A stretch of 64,000 bases of DNA, taken from NCBI GenBank assembly GCA_009760885.1, contig CM019721.1, positions 18,488,381 to 18,552,380 of the forward strand, given 5' to 3'. The position numbers and the translations under genes were made by a program. The stretch's first letter is position 1. Each line of letters starts with the position of its first letter. This DNA comes from Achatina immaculata (taxonomy: Eukaryota; Mollusca; Gastropoda; Stylommatophora; Achatinidae). Shown here piece by piece: positions 3,085-62,770 of this stretch. A model generated the notes under the pieces. The model saw only the letters and a program-made list of their open reading frames with translations. It was not told where the DNA came from and searched no databases.

Positions 3085-3181
3085 TATCCTGAGAAGAAAC
3101 ACTCCAGTTTTGCTGTTCCAAACCTCTTAACCAGAACCTCACTGTTGCTGTACCTCAGCTGAGGTTTGATTGTACCAACGT
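3085..3181 (-). CDS. Ig cell adhesion gene, exon 6 (start of Ig3)
   Basis: Last exon of the gene seen in this window. It has an acceptor ATTTCAG just above 3181 and a donor GTAAGT at 3079-3084. It carries 31 whole codons with 2-base overhangs at both ends. The upstream A from exon 5 plus AC makes the joining codon. The translation opens an Ig domain: IKPQLRYSNSEVLV, then a B-strand Cys in KLECFFSG. Ig3 of L1-type proteins starts in the same way (linker, Y/S-rich strand, LEC..AG). The second half of Ig3, with its Trp and second Cys, was not found at 1-3084; it may lie to the left of the window. Confidence 0.85.
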
Positions 3182-5811: not shown

Positions 5812-5930
5812 CTGTTATGCCATTAAGGCCATGTTGATGATACTGTGTTAGGGGCGCATTTCCACGACCTTCGGCACATGAAAGTGTGATATGGTCAGTA
5901 TCAGGCCTGGCCGCTTTGTGTCTTTTGGTT
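5812..5930 (-). mobile_element. SINE-1 body fragment
   Basis: Matches the antisense of the SINE-1 core, including GACCTTCGGCACATGAAAGT and GGTCAGTATCAGGCCTGG, as seen also at 10184, 49570 and (complete, plus) 51000. Confidence 0.65.
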
Positions 5931-5944
5931 GAGACAATCAGCAT

Positions 5945-6292
5945 GATACTACTTACGGTTTGTTTAGGTGACTTCCAAGTGATACTACTTATGGTTTGTT
6001 TAGGTGACTTCCAAGTGATACTACTTATGGTTTGTTTAGGTGACTTCCAAGTGATACTACTTATGGTTTGTTTAGGTGACTTCCAAGTGATACTACTTAT
6101 GGTTTGTTTAGGTGACTTCCAAGTGATACTACTTATGGTTTGTTTAGGTGACTTCCAAGTGATACTACTTATGGTTTGTTTAGGTGACTTCCAAGTGATA
6201 CTACTTATGGTTTGTTTAGGTGACTTCCAAGTGATACTACTTACTATTTGTTTAGGTGACTTCCAAGTGATACTACTTACTATTTGTTTAGG
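5945..6292. repeat. 36-bp minisatellite, block 1 (about 10 copies)
   Basis: Unit reads TTTGTTTAGGTGACTTCCAA then GTGATACTACTTATGG. Both strands stay open only because 36 is a multiple of 3; it is not a gene. In most units here the minus-strand GTAAGT motif is changed to ATAAGT. See the finding on its origin from an exon junction. Confidence 0.95.
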
Positions 6293-6824
6293 GCCAGCAA
6301 CCCTATCTGGTAAAAAAACTATCAGACTGCTACAGAAACGGAAGCAAGGGAAAAAGCAAATGCAGGTGGAAGGAGAATTGCGTATCAGTACTCTATGGAA
6401 GCGAATGCTGGAAAATCACCAAAACCATAGAAAACAAGTTGAATTCTTTCCAGACTAAATGTTTACGAAGAATTAGGAAAATATTTTGGCCAAACACTAT
6501 AAGAAATAACATCTTATTAGCAGAAATGCAGATGAAACCACTGACAACAATTATTGAGGAAAGACGCTGGCGATGGTTGGGACATGTGCTCCGAATGACT
6601 GACAACTCACTACCAAAAATAGCACTAAGATGGACACCACAGGGGAGCAGAAGTAAGGGTAGACCAAAAGAGACATGGAGAAGAACAACAGAAAGGATGT
6701 TGAGCAATAGAGGGCTCACCTGGTCAAGAGCAGAAAAAAAGGCGAAGGACAGGCATTTGTGGAAAACCCTTGTGGAAGCCCCATGTGCCCTGGGCACTTA
6801 AGGTTCAGAGAGAGAGAGAGAGAG
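6293..6824 (+). mobile_element. LINE-B copy inserted in the 36-bp array
   Basis: About 530 bp and the longest LINE-B copy here. The plus frame carries NSFQTKCLRRIRKIFWPNTI, then RRWRWLGHVLRM, KGRPKETWRR and the C-terminus APCALGT, then the CTTAAGGTTCAG end and a GA tail. The array unit ATTTGTTTAGG at 6282-6292 recurs as ATTTATTTAGG at 6825-6835, a probable 11-bp target duplication. It encodes no RT motif and is a 5'-truncated dead copy. Confidence 0.85.
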
Positions 6825-7452
6825 ATTTATTTAGGTGACTTCCAAGTGATAATACTTACTATTTGTTTACGTGACTTCCAAGTGATACTACTTATGGTTT
6901 GTTTACGTGACTTCCAAGTGATACTACTTACTATTTGTTTACGTGACTTCCAAGTGATACTACTTACTATCTGTTTAGGTGACTTCCAAGTGATACTACT
7001 TACGGTTTGTTTACGTGACTTCCAAGTGATACTACTTACGGTTTGTTTACGTGACTTCCAAGTGATACTACTTACTATTCGTTTACGTGACTTCCAAGTG
7101 ATACTACTTACTATTTGTTTACGTGACTTCCAAGTGATACTACTTACTATTTGTTTACGTGACTTCCAAGTGATACTACTTACGGTTTGTTTACGTGACT
7201 TCCAAGTGATACTACTTACTATTTGTTTACGTGACTTCCAAGTGATACTACTTACGGTTTGTTTACGTGACTTCCAAGTGATACTACTTACTATTTGTTT
7301 AGGTGACTTCCAAGTGATACTACTTACTATTTGTTTAGGTGACTTCCAAGTGATACTACTTACTATTTGTTTAGGTGACATACAAGTGATACTACTTATG
7401 GTTTGTTTAGGTGACTTCCAAGTGATAATACATACTATATGTTTAGGTGACA
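6825..7452. repeat. 36-bp minisatellite, block 2 (about 17 copies)
   Basis: Continuation of the array beyond the LINE-B insertion. Units are mostly ...TACTTACTATTTG or ...TACTTACGGTTTG, keeping GTAAGT on the minus strand. Confidence 0.95.
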
Positions 7453-7878
7453 TCCAAATATGTCTACTTACTACTTGCTCGTGTGATTTTTCAAATGTTA
7501 CTACTTACTACTTGCTCGTGTGATTTTTCAAATGTTACTACTTACTACTTGCTCGTGTGATTTTTCAAATGTTACTACTTACTACCTGCTCGTGTGATTT
7601 TTCAAATGTTACTACTTACTACCTGCTCGTGTGATTTTTCAAATGTTACTACTTACTACCTGCTCGTGTGATTTTTCAAATGTTACTACTTACTACCTGC
7701 TCGTGTGATTTTTCAAATGTTACTACTTACTACCTGCTCGTGTGATTTTTCAAATGTTACTACTTACTACCTGCTCGTGTGATTTTTCAAATGTTACTAC
7801 TTACTACCTGCTCGTGTGATTTTTCAAATGTTACTACTTACTACCTGCTCGTGTGATTTTTCAAATGTTACTACTTAC
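7453..7878. repeat. 37-bp minisatellite, about 11 copies
   Basis: Unit CTGCTCGTGTGATTTTTCAA then ATGTTACTACTTACTAC. This is a diverged sister of the 36-bp unit, sharing the ACTACTTACTA core, and is much more homogeneous. It touches the donor site of the Ig gene exon at 7879. Confidence 0.95.
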
Positions 7879-7998
7879 TACTTGTTTGTGTAACTTCCAG
7901 GCGGTGGTCTCGTCCTAGTCGAACGAATGAAGAATTCTTAATGCCGCATGTATACGTGAAAGCATCCTTCGCCAACACATAGGAAAAGTGAAGGTTTC
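7879..7998 (-). CDS. Ig cell adhesion gene, exon 5 (second half of Ig2)
   Basis: 120-nt exon. It has an acceptor ATATATCAG just above 7998 and a donor GTAAGT at 7873-7878. It carries 39 whole codons between a 2-base and a 1-base overhang, matching exons 4 and 6. The translation begins NLHFSYVLAKD and has the F-strand Cys in FTYTCGIKN (with a possible N-glycosylation site NSS), then a G strand ending LEVTQTS. In L1-family Ig2 domains the phrase GNLxFSNV...D...Y.C occupies the same place. The donor is the first of a long series of copies of itself: the intron immediately downstream is the 37/36-bp array. Confidence 0.9.
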
Positions 7999-8483
7999 CT
8001 GATATATGTAAATACAATAGTCATGAAGTTTTACATAAAGACATATTATTTTTAATTGTAAAATAAAAGATATAAGAAACAGAATGAACTTACGTGGTTT
8101 CTAAATGACTGACGGATTATTAGAAATACAGGCAAATAGGATGGGCAGATGAATTCTTGGACGCACAGTTATATATTCAGCAGCCACCTTTATATTCTGT
8201 TATAAACCACTTTTGTCACATTTGTGACACAGGTGGATGACAGCTGTTTGTGGAAATTACACAGCATCGTTTTACTAAGCAAATTCTCTCATTCTTGATT
8301 CTGACCAATATATATATATATAAGTATAATCAAGAGCTTGGCCAGGAAATACAGTGTGTAGCTGCTATGTTGAACGTCTATGAGTGTGCTTATAATCTTC
8401 CAAATCTGACCCTAGTTCTAAATAATGCAGCACATCAAAGGAAGGTCACTTCTTATGTCAGTCAGTCTTTGCCAGTTCTTCTT
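7999..8483. other. Intronic, unassigned
   Basis: AT-rich, with a short TA run near 8310. No exon or repeat family recognised. Confidence 0.4.
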
Positions 8484-9093: not shown

Positions 9094-9276
9094 CTTGTAT
9101 GTCTAGGTAGAGACGACCGTCATCTGTGCTGACGTGAGCCAATGTGTGAGCATTATACCACATGTATGTAAGACTGGCCCCGACGGTCGCCCCTTTCTTG
9201 TCACATTTTAGCTCGGTGTAGTCAAATTCTGTTACTTTCTTTGTGACAGGGCTGTTGTCTGTGAATCTGTCTATCC
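9094..9276 (-). CDS. Ig cell adhesion gene, exon 4 (first half of Ig2)
   Basis: 183-nt exon. It has an acceptor CTCTATTCAG above 9276 and a donor GTAAGT at 9088-9093. It carries 60 codons between a 2-base and a 1-base overhang. The translation runs from a linker (DRFTDNSPV) through the B-strand Cys (YTELKCDKKG) and the C-strand Trp (SLTYMWYN) to STDDGRLYLDIQ. The joining codon with exon 5 is Gly, giving DIQ-G-NLHFS. It lies in phase after exon 3 if the donor ending at 10870 is used. Confidence 0.9.
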
Positions 9277-10029
9277 CTGAATAGAGATTTAATTATAAAC
9301 ACAAAAAAAAAAAAACAAAGAAGAGAAACAGGTTGCTGTTTTTCGAATACCTTTTAGGTTTCTTATCGAGGTATGAGCATACTTTTCTAGAGCCATGCAG
9401 GAATTTCTGCAGCCAGAAAATAAGACAAAGATGTAAGTGAGAAACGCAGTTCATAAAGAAATAATGGAAAACACTAGAAACAGTCACTCCCCCCCCCTCC
9501 CCCACAAAAAAAGAAGAGAAATGTTTTTTGCCTTATCAGCACATCTAACAAACAACGTCTGTTTTAATATCAAGGCTGACAACCCCTTTCCTGTTAAAGA
9601 CGTGACAACCAGTTTCTGACTGAGTTCCTGTTTAAAGGCAACATTTCCTGATCAAGATTCAAGAACTGACAACTCGTTGCTGATCAAGGGCTGACAACCC
9701 CTTTCCTGATCAAGGGCTGACATCGCCTTCCTTGTCAAGGGCTGACAACTCGTTCTTGACTAGGACTGACAACTCTTTCCTTGTCAAGGGCTGACAACCC
9801 TTTCCTGATCAGGGAGTGCCGTACCACATTTGTTTAACACTGTTTCCGACTTGCTCGCCCTGACAGACAGCGGTGACAGAAGAGCTACAGAAAGAACATG
9901 TCGTAAGAACACATAACGCTTTTCTTTTAGTTCGTTACCAAAAGCAGGTGCCCAACTCAATGCCAACCATAAATATAGTTCTTTCCGGGCTGATTTTTAC
10001 AATGAGAATATAATATAATAATATAATAT
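9277..10029. other. Intronic; degenerate 26-bp repeats at 9640-9815
   Basis: The stretch 9640-9815 holds about six imperfect copies of AAGGGCTGACAACCCCTTTC plus TGATC. The rest shows an A-run near 9302 and no recognisable feature. Confidence 0.6.
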
Positions 10030-10456: not shown

Positions 10457-10505
10457 CTGGATATACGTGCAAGGATCGTTGGTCTCAACATTTTCACCAA
10501 ATCGC
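10457..10505 (-). other. Candidate 49-nt cassette exon of the Ig gene
   Basis: Strong splice-site shapes on the minus strand: acceptor TATTTTTTGCAG above 10505 and donor CAG|GTAAGT (10451-10456). Including it between exons 3 and 4 would break the reading frame (49 is not a multiple of 3 and exon 4 would be read into a stop). It is therefore a cryptic site pair, a frame-shifting (poison) cassette, or part of a combination I did not find. Confidence 0.35.
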
Positions 10506-10869: not shown

Positions 10870-11075
10870 TTGACATATACACGGTAACTTCTGGAGAAAA
10901 ACCTGAAGGTGTGATTCTTCCACCTCGACCATCATCAAAGGCGTTGCTAGCGACACACCTGTACACGCCCTCATCATAAACACGGAGGTTTGATACGTTC
11001 AAGGTCCCAGTGACACCGTCGAATGTAACCCTTTCATGTGGAATAATTTCTGTCCCGTTTTTTGTCCATGTATAT
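10870..11075 (-). CDS. Ig cell adhesion gene, exon 3 (second half of Ig1)
   Basis: 206-nt exon. It has an acceptor TTTTCGCAG above 11075 and a donor GTACGT (10864-10869). It carries 68 codons between 1-base overhangs. It completes Ig1: the C-strand Trp in YTWTKNGTEI, TGTLNVSNL, and the classic DEGVYRCVASNAF with the second Cys, then SPEVTVYMS. It has N-glycosylation motifs NGT and NVS. An insert of about 11 Gly/Arg/Ser-rich residues sits between SNAF and SPEV, where related proteins have only a few residues. The chosen donor keeps phase with exon 4; inclusion of the 49-nt candidate would not. Confidence 0.9.
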
Positions 11076-13204: not shown

Positions 13205-13302
13205 ATTTATGGAAACACCAAAGACAGCACACGTATGAGTAGGAAACACCAAGGGGAGCACACGTGTGACTAGGAAACACCTAAAGAAGCACACGTGTGA
13301 CT
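13205..13302. repeat. 31-bp minisatellite, left part (3 copies)
   Basis: First units of the array continued at 13649, separated from it by a LINE-B insertion. The last 12 bases, ACACGTGTGACT (13291-13302), form the left target duplication. Confidence 0.9.
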
Positions 13303-13648
13303 CTCTCTCTCTCTCTGAACCTTAAGTGCCCAGGGCACATGGGGCTTCCGCAAGGGTTTTCCACAAATGCCTGTCCTTCGCCTTTTTTTCTGCTCTTGCC
13401 CAGGTGAGCCCTCTATTGCTCAACATCCTTTCTGTTGTTCTTCTCCATGTCTCTTTTGGTCTACCCTTACTTCTGCTCCCCTGTGGTGTCCATCTTAGTG
13501 CTATTTTTGGTAGTGAGTTGTCAGTCATTCGGAGCACATGTCCCAACCATTGCCAGCGTCTTTCTTCAATAATTGTTGTCAGTGGTTTCATCCGCATTTC
13601 TGCTAATAAGATGTTATTTCTTATAGTGTTTGGCCAAAATATTTTTCT
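13303..13648 (-). mobile_element. LINE-B copy inserted in the 31-bp array
   Basis: 346-bp 5'-truncated copy. The minus frame is open from RKIFWPNTIRNNILLAE through RRWQWLGHVLRM and KGRPKETWRR to APCALGT, with a CT (GA) tail. It is flanked by identical 12-bp ACACGTGTGACT at 13291-13302 and 13649-13660, so the insertion is clean and relatively recent. No RT domain is present. Confidence 0.92.
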
Positions 13649-14030
13649 ACACGTGTGACTAGGAAACACCTAAAGAAACACACATGTGACTAGGAAACAC
13701 CTAAAGGAGCACACGTGTGACTAGGAAACACCTAAAGGAGCACACGTGTGACTAGGAAACACCTAAAGGAGCACACGTGTGACTAGGAAACACCTAAAGG
13801 AGCACACGTGTGACTAGGAAACACCTAAAGGAGCACACGTGTGACTAGGAAACACCTAAAGGAGCACACGTGTGACTAGGAAACACCTAAAGGAGCACAC
13901 GTGTGACTAGGAAACACCTAAAGGAGCACACGTGTGACTAGGAAACACCTAAAAGAGCACGCGTGTGACTAGGAAACACCTAAAGGAGCACGCGTGTGAC
14001 TAGGAAACACCTAAAGGAGCACGCGTGATA
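13649..14030. repeat. 31-bp minisatellite, right part (about 12 copies)
   Basis: Unit CCTAAAGGAGCACACGTGTG then ACTAGGAAACA. Each unit holds the palindrome CACACGTGTG, with an E-box CACGTG. The last three units have CACGCGTG instead. Confidence 0.95.
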
Positions 14031-14157: not shown

Positions 14158-14432
14158 CAGTAAAGATGTCTCACAAAAACAGAAAGATGTCCAACAAAAA
14201 CAGAGAGATGTCCCACAGGAACAGAGAGTTGTCCCACAAAAACAGAGAGTTGTCCTACAAAAACAGAGAGGTGTCCCACAAAAACAGAGAGTTGTCCTAC
14301 AAAAACAGAGAGGTGTCCCACAAAAACAGAGAGATGTCCCACAGAAACAGAGAGATGTCTCACAAAAACAGAGAGTTGTCCTACAAAAAACAGAGAGGTG
14401 TCCAACAAAAACAGAGAGATGTCCCAGAGCTA
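14158..14432. repeat. 21-bp minisatellite, about 13 copies
   Basis: Unit CCCACAAAAACAGAGAGATGT, length 21, so all frames without stops look coding (KNREMSH repeats). It is intronic and begins about 4 bases inside the intron from the exon 2 donor. Confidence 0.92.
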
Positions 14433-14441
14433 CAGACTTAC

Positions 14442-14550
14442 GTTGGTGGTGGGTCTCCGTTGGCCCGACAAGGAAGAACAGCATGGCCACCTTCTGTAAA
14501 GTACAGAATTTTGGGTCTGTCTGGGTCCAAGATATGAGGTGGTCTGTATG
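14442..14550 (-). CDS. Ig cell adhesion gene, exon 2 (first half of Ig1)
   Basis: 109-nt exon. It has an acceptor TGTGCCTGCAG above 14550 and a donor GTAAGT (14436-14441). It carries 35 codons between 2-base overhangs. The translation starts YRPPHILDPDRPKILYF and reaches the first Ig Cys in AVLPCRANGDPPP. That is the usual opening of Ig1 in L1/contactin-type proteins (PP.I......, then LxCxAxGxPxPT). The joining codon with exon 3 is Thr, giving PPP-T-YTWTKNG across the splice. Confidence 0.9.
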
Positions 14551-49745: not shown

Positions 49746-50039
49746 TCTTTGGGCACGGGCATACAGTAAAAAAATAAGTTTAGATATTAATTAGGCTGAG
49801 TGTAGTAAAATGGCTTTTCACAGTATGTGAGACTTTTACTAAACGTAATAACATAATACTCATTTTACAGGTGTAACTGTATGTACAGTATGTGGTCTTT
49901 ATGTGAGATTGTAAGTGTTTGTATTGTAGGGGGAAAAACGTTTGTATATCATAATCCACTTTCGGCTTGCTGTTATTTTGTGTCTCCATGGAACTTCGAG
50001 CTACTGGCAGAACGTTATCACTGTGGAGATTTAGGACAC

Positions 50040-50730
50040 AGAGTACCTTGCCAGACACAGAGCACCATGCCTGACACAGAGCACCATGCCAGACACAGAG
50101 CACCATGCCAGACACAGAGCACCTTGCCAGACACAGAGCACCATGCCAGACGCAGAGCACCATATCAGACACAGAGCACCTTGCCAGACACAGAGCACCA
50201 TGCCAGACGCAGAGCACCATATCAGACACAGAGCACCATATCAGACACAGAGCACCATGCCAGACACAAAGCACCATGCCAGACACAGAGCACCATATCA
50301 GACACAGAGCACCTTGCCAGACACAGAGCACCATGCCAGACGCAGAGCACCATATCAGACACAGAGCACCATATCAGACACAGAGCACCATATCAGACAC
50401 AGAGCACCATATCAGACACAGAGCACCTTGCCAGACACAGAGCACCATGCCAGACACAGAGCACCATGCCAGACACAGAGCACCATGCCAGACGCAGAGC
50501 ACCATATCAGACACAGAGCACCATATCAGACACAGAGCACCATATCAGACACAGAGCACCATAACAGACACAGAGCACCATATCAGACACAGAACACCAT
50601 ATCAAACACAGAGCACCATATCAGACACAGAGCACCATATCAGACACAGAGCACCATGTCAGACACAGAGCACCATGTCAGACATAGAGCACCATATCAG
50701 ACACAGAGCACCATGTAGGACACAGAGTAG
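50040..50730. repeat. 19-bp minisatellite, about 36 copies
   Basis: Unit CAGAGCACCATATCAGACA with variants at two spots (CTTGC, CATGC or CATAT; GACAC or GACGC). Minus and plus frames are open artefacts (DTEHHIRHRAPYQTQ-like). Confidence 0.95.
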
Positions 50731-58049: not shown

Positions 58050-58640
58050 ACAAGCGCCTTCCTACACAACAGACACTTTCTTACACAACAGACACCTTCT
58101 TACACAACAGACATCTTCTTACACAACAGACGCTTTCTTACACAACAGACACTTTCTTACACAATAGACACCTTCTTACACAACAGACACTTTCTTACAC
58201 AACAGACGCCTTCTTACACAACAGACATTTTCTTACACAACAGACACCTTCTTACACAACAGACATCTTCTTACACAACAGACACTTTCTTACACAACAG
58301 ACATCTTCTTACACAACAGACATCTTCTTACACAACAGACATCTTCTTACACAACAGACACTTTCTTACACAACAGACACCTTCTTATACAACAGACACT
58401 TTCTTACACAACAGACACCTTCTTACACAACAGACATTTTCTTACACAACAGACATTTTCTTACACAACAGACACTTTCTTACACAACAGACACCTTCTT
58501 ACACACAGACACTTTCTTACACAACAGACACTTTCTTACACAACAGACATCTTCTTACACAACATACACCTTTTTATACAACAGACATCTTCCTACACAA
58601 CAGACATCTTCTTACACAACAGACAATTTCTTCCACAGCA
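58050..58640. repeat. 19-bp minisatellite, about 31 copies
   Basis: Unit CTTCTTACACAACAGACAC, with CAT, CGC and TTT variants. Confidence 0.95.
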
Positions 58641-58659
58641 GACACTTTCTAGTGAAAAA

Positions 58660-60290
58660 GATTACTTCTTATAATACGACAGAAGTCATCTTGTAGTACA
58701 ACAGATGGTTAGACAGCTTCTTGTAATAGAATAGACAGCTTCTTTTAGTAGAATAGACGACTTCGTATAGTAGAAAAGACGATTTCTAGTAGTAAAATAG
58801 ACAATTTCTTAAATAGAATGGACGACTTCTTGTAGTAGAATAGACGATTTCTTATATTAGAATAGACCGTTTCTTGTAGTAGAATAGACCGCTTCTTGTA
58901 GTGGAATAGACGTCTTCTTGTAGTAGAATAGACGTCTTCTTGTAGTAGAATAGACGACTTCTTGTAGTAGAATAGACGATTTCTTATATTAGAATAAACC
59001 TTTTTTTGTACTAGAATAGACCGCTTCTTGTCGTGGAATAGACCACTTCTTGTAGTAGAATAGACGATTTCTTATATTAGAATAGACCTTTTCTTGTAGT
59101 AGAATAGACCGCTTCTTGTCGTGGAATAGACCACTTCTTGTAGTAGAATAGACGATTTCTTATATTAGAATAGACCTTTTCTTGTAGTAGAATAGACCGC
59201 TTCTTGTCGTGGAATAGACCGCTTCTTGTAGTAGAATAGACCACTTTGTAGCAGAATAGACGTCTTCTTGTAGTAAAATAGACCGTTTCTTGTAGTAGAA
59301 TAGACGATTTCTTATATTAGAATAGACCACTTCTTGTAGCAGAATAAACCGCTTCTTGTAGTAGAATAGACCGTTTCTTGTAGTAGAATAGACCATTTCT
59401 TGTAGTAGAATAGACCATTTCTTGTAGTAGAATAGACTATTTCTTATATTAGAATAGACCGTTTCTTGTAGTAGAATAGACTATTTCTTATATTAGAATA
59501 GACCGCTTCTTGTTGTGGAATAGACTACTTTTTGTAGTAGAATAGACGATTTCTTATATTAGAATAGATCACTTCTTGTAGTAGAATAGACGATTTCTTA
59601 TATTAGAATAGACCATTTCTTGTAGTAGGATAGACCGCTTCTTGTCGTGGAATAGACCACTTCTTGTAGCAGAATAGACGTCTGCTTCTAGTAGAATAGA
59701 CGATTTCTTATATTAGAATAAACCTTTTTTTGTACTAGAATAGACCACTTCTGGTCGTGGAATAGACCACTTCTTGTAGTAGAATAGACGATTTCTTATA
59801 GTAGAATAGACCGTTTCTTGTAGTAGAATAGACCGCTTCTTGTCGTGGAATAGACCACTTGTTGTAGTAGAATAGACGTCTTCTTGTAGTAGAATAGACG
59901 ATTTATTATATTAGAATAGACCGTTTCTTGTAGTAGAATAGACGATTTCTTATTTTAGAATAGACCGTTTCTTGTAGTAGAATAGACGATTTCTTATACT
60001 AGAATAGACCACTTCTTGTAGTAGAATAGACGATTTCTTATATTAGAATAGACCTTTTCTTGTAGTAGAATAGACCGCTTCTTGTCGTGGAATAGACCAC
60101 TTCTTGTAGTAGAATAGACGTCTTCTTGTAGTAGAATGGACGTCTTCTTGTAATAAAATAGACACATTATTGTAATAGAATAGACGGCGTCTTGTAGAAA
60201 AATAGACCGCTTCTTGTGATAAAATAGACGGCTTCGTGTAGTAGTATAGACAGCTTCTTTAGAATGGACGGCTTCCTGTAGTAGACGGCC
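58660..60290. repeat. 22-bp minisatellite, about 74 copies
   Basis: Unit CTTCTTGTAGTAGAATAGAC plus GA/CC. A frequent alternation is TTGTAGTAGAATAGAC with TTATATTAGAATAGAC and TTGTCGTGGAATAGAC units, giving 44-66 bp periodicity. It is the longest array in the window. Open frames inside it are artefacts. Confidence 0.95.
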
Positions 60291-61794: not shown

Positions 61795-62770
61795 GTGGGG
61801 GGGGGGGGGGGGTGAAGTCGCTGTCCTATTATGCAAACAGCGACCTATAGCTGATATGCCAGCGTCAGGTTTAGCGACCCATAGCTGATATGCTAGCGTC
61901 AGGTTTAGCGACCCATAGCTGATATGCTAGCGTCAGGGTTAGCGACCCATAGCTGATATGCCAGCGTCAGGGTTAGCGACCCATAGCTGATATGCCAGCG
62001 TCAGGGTTAGCGACCCATAGCTGATATGCCAGCGTCAGGGTTAGCGACCCATAGCTGATATGCCAGCGTCAGGGTTAGTGAACCATAGCTGATATGCTAG
62101 CGTCAGGGTTAGCGAACCATAGCTGATATGCTAGCGTCAGGGTTAGTGAACCATAGCTGATATGCCAGGGTCAGGGTTAGTGAACCATAGCTGATATGCC
62201 AGGGTCAGGGTTAGTGAACCATAGCTGATATGCCAGGGTCAGGGTTAGTGAACCATAGCTGATATGCCAGGGTCAGGGTTAGTGAACCATAGCTGATATG
62301 CCAGGGTCAGGGTTAGTGAACCATAGCTGATATGCCAGGGTCAGGGTTAGTGAACCATAGCTGATATGCCAGGGTCAGGGTTAGTGAACCATAGCTGATA
62401 TGCCAGGGTCAGGGTTAGCGAACCATAGCTGATATGCCAGGGTCAGGGTTAGTGAACCATAGCTGATATGCTAGCGTCAGGGTTAGAGAACCAAAGCTGA
62501 CCAAGACCCTGTTCCAGCTCTCCGCTGGCACCCCCAGTAACAGACCTAGACTGGCTAACAAGGCAGGGATCGCCATAGTCCCCATGGTGGTGGAGTCTGC
62601 TAAATACGTATTGCACACTCCTCGCTTTTTAGCTGTACTCCGGGACTGAAAAAAAAAATAGCCGCCATAACCCGCTCCCACGCCGATACGATGCTGTACC
62701 TCAACACCTTCACAGCATCGGCTGCGAAGAACATCAGTTCGCAGTTACAGGGAAATAACACAAGACAAGA
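61795..62770 (-). mobile_element. Element X, copy 2, expanded
   Basis: Antisense relative to copy 1 (14640). The left part is the 34-bp array; 62495-62760 matches copy 1 (CCTAGACTGGCTAACAAGGC, GTCCCCATGGTGGTGGAGTC, GTACTCCGGGACTG, CAGCATCGGCTGCGAAGAAC). It sits between two halves of a LINE RT, so it is probably an insertion. Confidence 0.75.
61840..62490. repeat. 34-bp minisatellite, about 19 copies
   Basis: Unit GTTAGCGACCCATAGCTGAT then ATGCCAGCGTCAGG. Left copies have GCGACCC, middle copies GTGAACC with CAGGGTCAGG. A G-run (61797-61812) lies at its left edge. Confidence 0.95.

Follow-up and report, generated by a model that had tools for sequence, protein, structure and literature searches.

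An immunoglobulin-receptor-like gene on the minus strand

The window, as the whole stretch of 64,000 nucleotides analysed here is called (G000:C9:18488381-18552380, from a searched assembly of 1.65 Gb on 145 contigs), contains an immunoglobulin-receptor-like gene on the minus strand, which hosts a long minisatellite array in one of its introns (7878-3182). The hemocyanin beta-sandwich family PF14830 has 69 matches in this genome, which suggests a mollusc. Six minus-strand exons, all bordered by AG and GT, were joined in phase to a single open frame of 236 residues, the other two frames containing many stops (Table 1). In a Pfam search of the joined protein, Ig domains were detected, Ig domain 2 by itself lying below the cut-off (17.3 bits vs 30). 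Contactin-4, -6, -3 and -5 align weakly with a stretch that begins in Ig2, spans the array intron and reaches Ig3, with E = 0.00018 to 0.0075 for the whole chain (best 0.00018) and, for the Ig2-Ig3 stretch itself, E = 0.051 in contactin-4 and 0.00085 in contactin-6. Contactins consist of Ig and FN3 repeats with a GPI anchor; Ig domains resembling contactin Ig2-Ig3 are present here, weakly matching contactin-3, -4, -5 and -6, and in place of the FN3 repeats and anchor the candidate last exon, as read by eye, would give a hydrophobic segment and a tail. Exon 9276-9094 is further supported by P0001, with 92% identity over 61% of the query.

Exon 7998-7879 has the acceptor ...ATATCAG and the donor GTAAGT at 7878. 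This exon, given to an Ig gene in the earlier note, looks real in view of the six exons in phase and the weak contactin-like similarity; a homologue search with the frame of this exon found none. Phase is preserved by GTAAGT and by the alternative donor GTAGTA alike. An exon/intron split after ...CAA, before GTAGTAAG, had also been given in the earlier note; it clashes with that note's own exon end at 7879, and the ends of three paralogue exons favour 7879.

Table 1. Features of the array and of its host gene, in window coordinates
Feature	Position	Strand	Basis
Likely exon, first half of Ig domain 1	14442..14550	-	read by eye
Exon, second half of Ig domain 1	10870..11075	-	splice sites, frame, Pfam
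Small exon, 49 nt	10457..10505	-	splice sites and frame alone
Small exon, 56 nt	9351..9406	-	splice sites and frame alone
Exon, first half of Ig domain 2	9094..9276	-	frame and paralogue matches
Exon coding for the second half of Ig domain 2, in phase 1 at each end	7879..7998	-	frame, weak contactin-like alignment, three paralogues
First array unit (exon end, donor and intron start)	7866..7901	-	
5' splice site GTAAGT	7873..7878	-	phase, paralogue exon ends, donor scores
Alternative in-phase donor GTAGTA	7876..7881	-	
37-bp subfamily, 10 full copies and a shortened transition copy	7470..7865	-	
36-bp subfamily, block 2, 17 copies	6827..7469	-	
Dispersed-repeat fragment with (GA)n tail	6303..6826 (approx.)	+	sequence, open frame 6292-6801
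36-bp subfamily, block 1, 10 copies	5945..6302	-	
Next exon found, first half of Ig domain 3	3085..3181	-	

To the left of the window, further exons, read by eye, would encode the second half of Ig domain 3 (Ig3b), a fourth Ig-like domain and a hydrophobic segment with tail; the last of these, with YEN motifs in the tail, is the candidate last exon. An exon joining the first half of Ig domain 3 (Ig3a) to Ig3b was looked for and not found; their phases, 2 and 1, do not join. The window as a whole (1-64000) is very dense in minisatellites, with 101 TRF rows, many of them overlapping, and dense examples at 50035-50727, 58057-58650, 58710-60259 and 61847-62500. One 21-bp array (14164-14426) begins 15 nt into the intron that follows exon 14550-14442 and does not include the donor.

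A split array of two subfamilies

In-register copies number 38 (1 at the junction, 10 of 37 bp and 27 of 36 bp), and a shortened copy lies near 7480; the earlier figure of about 39 copies is adjusted accordingly, and the 36- and 37-bp subfamilies it described are upheld. The ten 37-bp copies are 99% alike and the 27 36-bp copies 91%. The array, described before as extending about 1.9 kb into the intron, is interrupted at about 6303-6826 by a repeat fragment, which cuts the adjoining copy of block 1. A DNA search of the genome with 7400-8000 (4 matches, in a search that skips common words) matched the array itself alone, a search with the array reading frame found no homologue at E ≤ 10 among 7502 candidates, and Rfam and tRNA scans found nothing.

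The inserted fragment, which we take from its coding pattern to be the end of a LINE, matched no Pfam family and is flanked by a possible short target-site duplication (ATTTGTTTAG / ATTTATTTAG). A further copy lies in the window at 13300-13690 and agrees with it at 98.3% of 349 aligned nt, so the fragment was probably inserted recently, after the array had formed.

The exon end within the repeat unit

The array begins about 23 nt inside the exon, at 7901, slightly before the donor at which it had been said to start exactly: array unit 1 (7901-7866) is made up of the last 23 nt of exon 7998-7879 and the first 13 nt of the intron. It is identical to the 36-bp unit at 30/36 positions, and the exon end itself agrees with that unit at 18 of 23. 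For the 20 exonic nt before GTA, compared in register, 16 are identical (binomial tail 4.4e-6 at a random-match probability of 0.295), a value reached by none of 123,948 20-mers of the window (both strands, outside 5900-7905), the best of which gave 14. The proposed alignment of exon end and intron start with the 36-bp unit is thereby borne out.

Similarity was also assessed against 5000 dinucleotide shuffles for each unit, a check that the earlier note had suggested. With exon and intron start together, 0/5000 shuffles reached the observed score for all three units. With the exon alone, the score was reached by 8/5000 against the main 36-bp unit and by 37/5000 against its CCGTAAGT variant; against the 37-bp unit, 4427/5000 shuffles reached it, which is no better than chance. 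According to these counts, the exonic part can be recognised only in comparison with the 36-bp family, and, as read from the alignments, the link of the exon end to the 37-bp unit rests on the intronic half and on the intermediate copy 1.

It could be asked whether a minisatellite merely came to abut an exon in a repeat-full genome, the resemblance being coincidental, as tandem repeats account for 25.7% of the 94 kb surrounding the locus, 14.7% of a 200-kb sample from the same contig and 32% of the gene span. Such a coincidence is extremely improbable, since no 20-mer of the window outside the array reaches the in-register identity of 16/20, and the gene has another exon that stands in the same relation to an array.

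Paralogues and the order of events

Protein searches of the genome yielded three paralogues of exon 9276-9094 (on C2, on C9 at 16.17 Mb and on C19; 37-41% identical), and the same three loci also match exon 7998-7879 and the Ig3b exon, with order and strand conserved. The gene family thus comprises at least four Ig genes; the C2 and C9 (16.1 Mb) members look like a recent pair with near-identical exons. Exon 7998-7879 is 57%, 57% and 47% identical to its three paralogues over the exon, and these have the acceptor at the same place and a phase-1 end, followed by GTATGT. The exon-end residues are LEVTQTS here and LTVTPAA, LTVTPAA and LTVTAST in the paralogues, whose exon ends agree with the 36-bp unit at 10-11 of 23 positions. 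No such array was found at the donors of the three paralogues or in the about 0.8 kb of intron examined; TRF at low threshold returned from these introns only a 2.4-copy 7-mer and (ATG)n, both in the C2 copy, and the best local scores of the paralogue introns to the two array units were 16-22, vs 72 for a full unit.

As the three paralogues keep the exon without copies, the exon is most likely older than the array, and the simplest history to be read from these sequences would run from the exon to junction duplication, expansion and divergence. Loss of the array in all three distant paralogues is a formal possibility.

Copy 1 is nearly central between the 36-bp and 37-bp subfamilies, with identities of 0.76 and 0.78 to the two, which are 0.66 identical to each other. 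By hand alignment, its site patterns comprise 24 shared positions, 7 shared with the 36-bp and 4 with the 37-bp subfamily, and 2 unique ones, the only 2 of 37 aligned consensus positions at which both subfamilies jointly differ from it. The states that copy 1 shares with both subfamilies could also result from mosaic conversion, if the array had existed first and had then been copied onto the exon end by conversion or by array-driven replacement of the last codons. This reverse order is improbable, considering that the unique states of copy 1 are few, that three paralogues match the exon in end and phase and lack such an array, and that the contactin-4 alignment passes the end of exon 7998-7879 without a gap there. 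The birth of the minisatellite from an exon/5' splice-site junction, as put forward in the earlier note, is strengthened by the array-free paralogues and by the site patterns of copy 1.

Donor motifs within the array

The minus strand of 5940-7905 contains 29 GTAAGT motifs, the true donor included, and none in the inserted fragment, in line with the many intact copies reported before. The motif is intact in 10/10 of the 37-bp copies, 14/17 copies of block 2 and 3/10 copies of block 1; in the remaining 7/10 of block 1 it is replaced by CCATAAGT, so that most copies of this block have indeed lost it. Donor scores were computed from general splice-site frequencies. The true donor scores 6.7, is equalled by 11 identical 9-mers and is outscored by 12 copies of ATAGTAAGT (7.5).

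The reading frame past the donor meets TAG at once, the immediate stop that had been noted for read-through from the exon. Because read-through meets this stop directly after the exon, donor choice is plausibly important, and it is a reasonable prediction from the sequence that choosing the correct donor matters.

These motifs could be thought functional, the 28 extra GTAAGT either recruiting U1 near a middling donor, with exon definition enhanced as a result, or serving regulated unproductive splicing, in which passing the first donor meets TAG. Sites with a donor score of at least 5 number 39 in 5930-7890 (a count that takes in the true donor, sites that overlap one another and 2 sites within the inserted fragment), compared with 5 in the next 2.7 kb of intron. 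U1 bound downstream of a donor is reported to enhance an exon (PMC5933811), and the C. elegans minisatellite CeRep25B is described as over-represented near alternative splicing regions (PMC4039745). A function of the array nevertheless appears unlikely, given its absence from the paralogues, the loss of the motif from 7/10 copies of block 1 and the lack of a clear donor-motif enrichment in sampled minisatellite units.

The sampled units, 181 in number, came from 294 kb (the 94 kb surrounding the locus and 200 kb from C9) and led to rejection of the donor motif as a general minisatellite seed. GTAAGT occurs in 6/181 units, two of them from the array of exon 7998-7879; the background mean was 2.4 units, with 8/200 background draws reaching 6, and the shuffle mean was 5.8 units, with 29/50 shuffles reaching 6. 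AGGTRAG (1/181 units) and a 3' splice-site pattern (14/181) were not enriched.

Other arrays at donors of the gene

The Ig3b exon lies about 16 kb further along the gene and has the end ...AACGTTATAT, followed by GTTAGTATTA at the intron start. A second array lies here (L005:1639-2070, minus strand, exon end near L005:2065), with a unit of exon end and donor (GTTATAT followed by GTTAGTATTACA); the repeat is largely GTTATATGTTAGTATTACA, that is, the last 7 exon nt, the donor and the intron start, and contains GTTAGT 19 times. The three Ig3b paralogues read ...GTCATCT followed by GTAAGTAT and show no array next to the donor in the roughly 0.5 kb of intron covered; the C19 paralogue has a short (TCA)n further into the intron. 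A third array (L006:7831-8017, minus strand, 46 bp, 4.1 copies) begins at the donor of the Ig4b exon, overlaps about 5 nt of that exon and contains four GTAAGA.

Arrays of exon end and donor are thus carried by 2 of the 10 donors found (exon 7998-7879 and Ig3b). Touched by an array are 3/9 donors, or 3/10 with exon 14550-14442 added, and 0/10 acceptors. At 32% repeat coverage, at least 3/9 touched donors are expected by chance with P = 0.58, and 0/10 touched acceptors with P = 0.02; donors and acceptors compared directly gave a Fisher value of 0.087 for being touched and a Mann-Whitney value of 0.065 (one-sided; two-sided 0.13) for the distance to the nearest array. Some exon ends left of the window are 1-2 bases off (both ends of Ig4a, the acceptors of Ig4b and of the last exon), which leaves the touched counts unchanged, because the nearest arrays there are at least 57 nt away.

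As a control, 20 of 150 listed I-set matches were used (150 of 887 candidates scored), 10 of the 20 lying close together on C29 and hence not being independent; 13 of the control donors were located by pattern and 7 judged by the end of the open frame. None of the 20 was touched by an array. In two of them (L034, L045), an array begins close by, about 20 and 17 nt beyond the donor. The gene's 3/10 donors differ from the 0/20 controls with a Fisher value of 0.030, and from 0/26, with six paralogue donors added, with 0.017, both comparisons having been picked after seeing the data. Elsewhere among the controls, a 56-bp array (170-708) reaches the domain start of I-set exon L038, perhaps an acceptor-side case, and in L030 the open frame contains an array ahead of the I-set domain.

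That minisatellites were seeded repeatedly at 5' splice sites here, the transcribed locus promoting or tolerating the duplication of donors and not of acceptors, is a tentative idea about which we are rather doubtful.

Proposed origin and significance

Judged from the sequence, the minisatellite very probably grew from the exon/5' splice-site junction, expanded, diverged and was later split by an insertion. In this history, about 36 nt reaching from the last part of an Ig-domain exon across the 5' splice site would have been duplicated in tandem in one member of the family and expanded to about 38 intronic copies, presumably by slippage or unequal exchange. The 36- and 37-bp subfamilies would then have diverged, each being homogenised separately, before the dispersed-repeat fragment split the 36-bp part. 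The exon-proximal copy would have been kept under coding and splicing constraint and would act as the real exon end, the remaining copies being intronic and the donor sequences of some of them decaying. The first donor is presumably the one used, because later donors would leave an in-frame TAG in the message, and the decoy copies may be near neutral. Duplications of the donor were probably tolerated, because the first copy is still a complete exon end.

The locus would thus hold an unusually clear record of the birth of a minisatellite, with the parent sequence still in the exon beside its copies and with array-free paralogues to show what the ancestral state probably was. The locus is also a natural setting in which to study how the spliceosome chooses one of some thirty similar donors, given a stop past the first. 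If general, repeated arrays at the donors of one gene would mean that tandem repeats can originate from splice junctions, and, if repeated seeding is true, introns would come to start with a field of decoy donors.

Comparison with known systems

The earlier note knew of no described example of this kind; precedents are the VNTR of the human CBS gene (PMC2630376, PMC5188458) and boundary repeats in human duplicated genes (PMC2812944). A literature search of open-licence papers, by titles and the starts of abstracts, gave no mollusc case among the matches listed.

Intron gain by tandem duplication is a known process (PMC4974935, PMC2891723) and likewise involves duplication around a splice-competent site, but it was rejected as a description of this locus: no new intron arose here, the donor side alone was multiplied, and exon end and phase are common to three paralogues. 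Human genes in segmental duplications are reported to contain minisatellites with units averaging 30 bp, some at exon-intron boundaries (PMC2812944, which also cites a survey, published in 2007, of human introns that arose from tandem arrays). The present array resembles these in a unit near 30 bp, in its place at an exon-intron boundary and in belonging to a group of paralogues; those repeats are reported to create novel introns, whereas the intron position here is common to three paralogues.

The 31-bp VNTR of human CBS, given as c.1444_1467+7(16_21), has 16-21 copies with substitutions between them (PMC2630376) and lies at the exon 13/intron 13 boundary, more repeats going with lower CBS activity (PMC5188458). 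By our reading of the notation, its unit consists of 24 exonic and 7 intronic nt, the donor included (PMC2630376). The repeat unit described here likewise holds exon end, donor and intron start, and three paralogues of one genome suggest that the boundary predates the repeat. The two differ in that the array here has units of 36/37 bp, about 38 copies and two diverged subfamilies split by an insertion, belongs to another gene and phylum, and is known from one assembly. The array is therefore an exon-intron boundary repeat of the same kind as the CBS VNTR, a kind already known; new here is that a second array of the same gene repeats exon end and donor, and is absent beside the paralogue exons.
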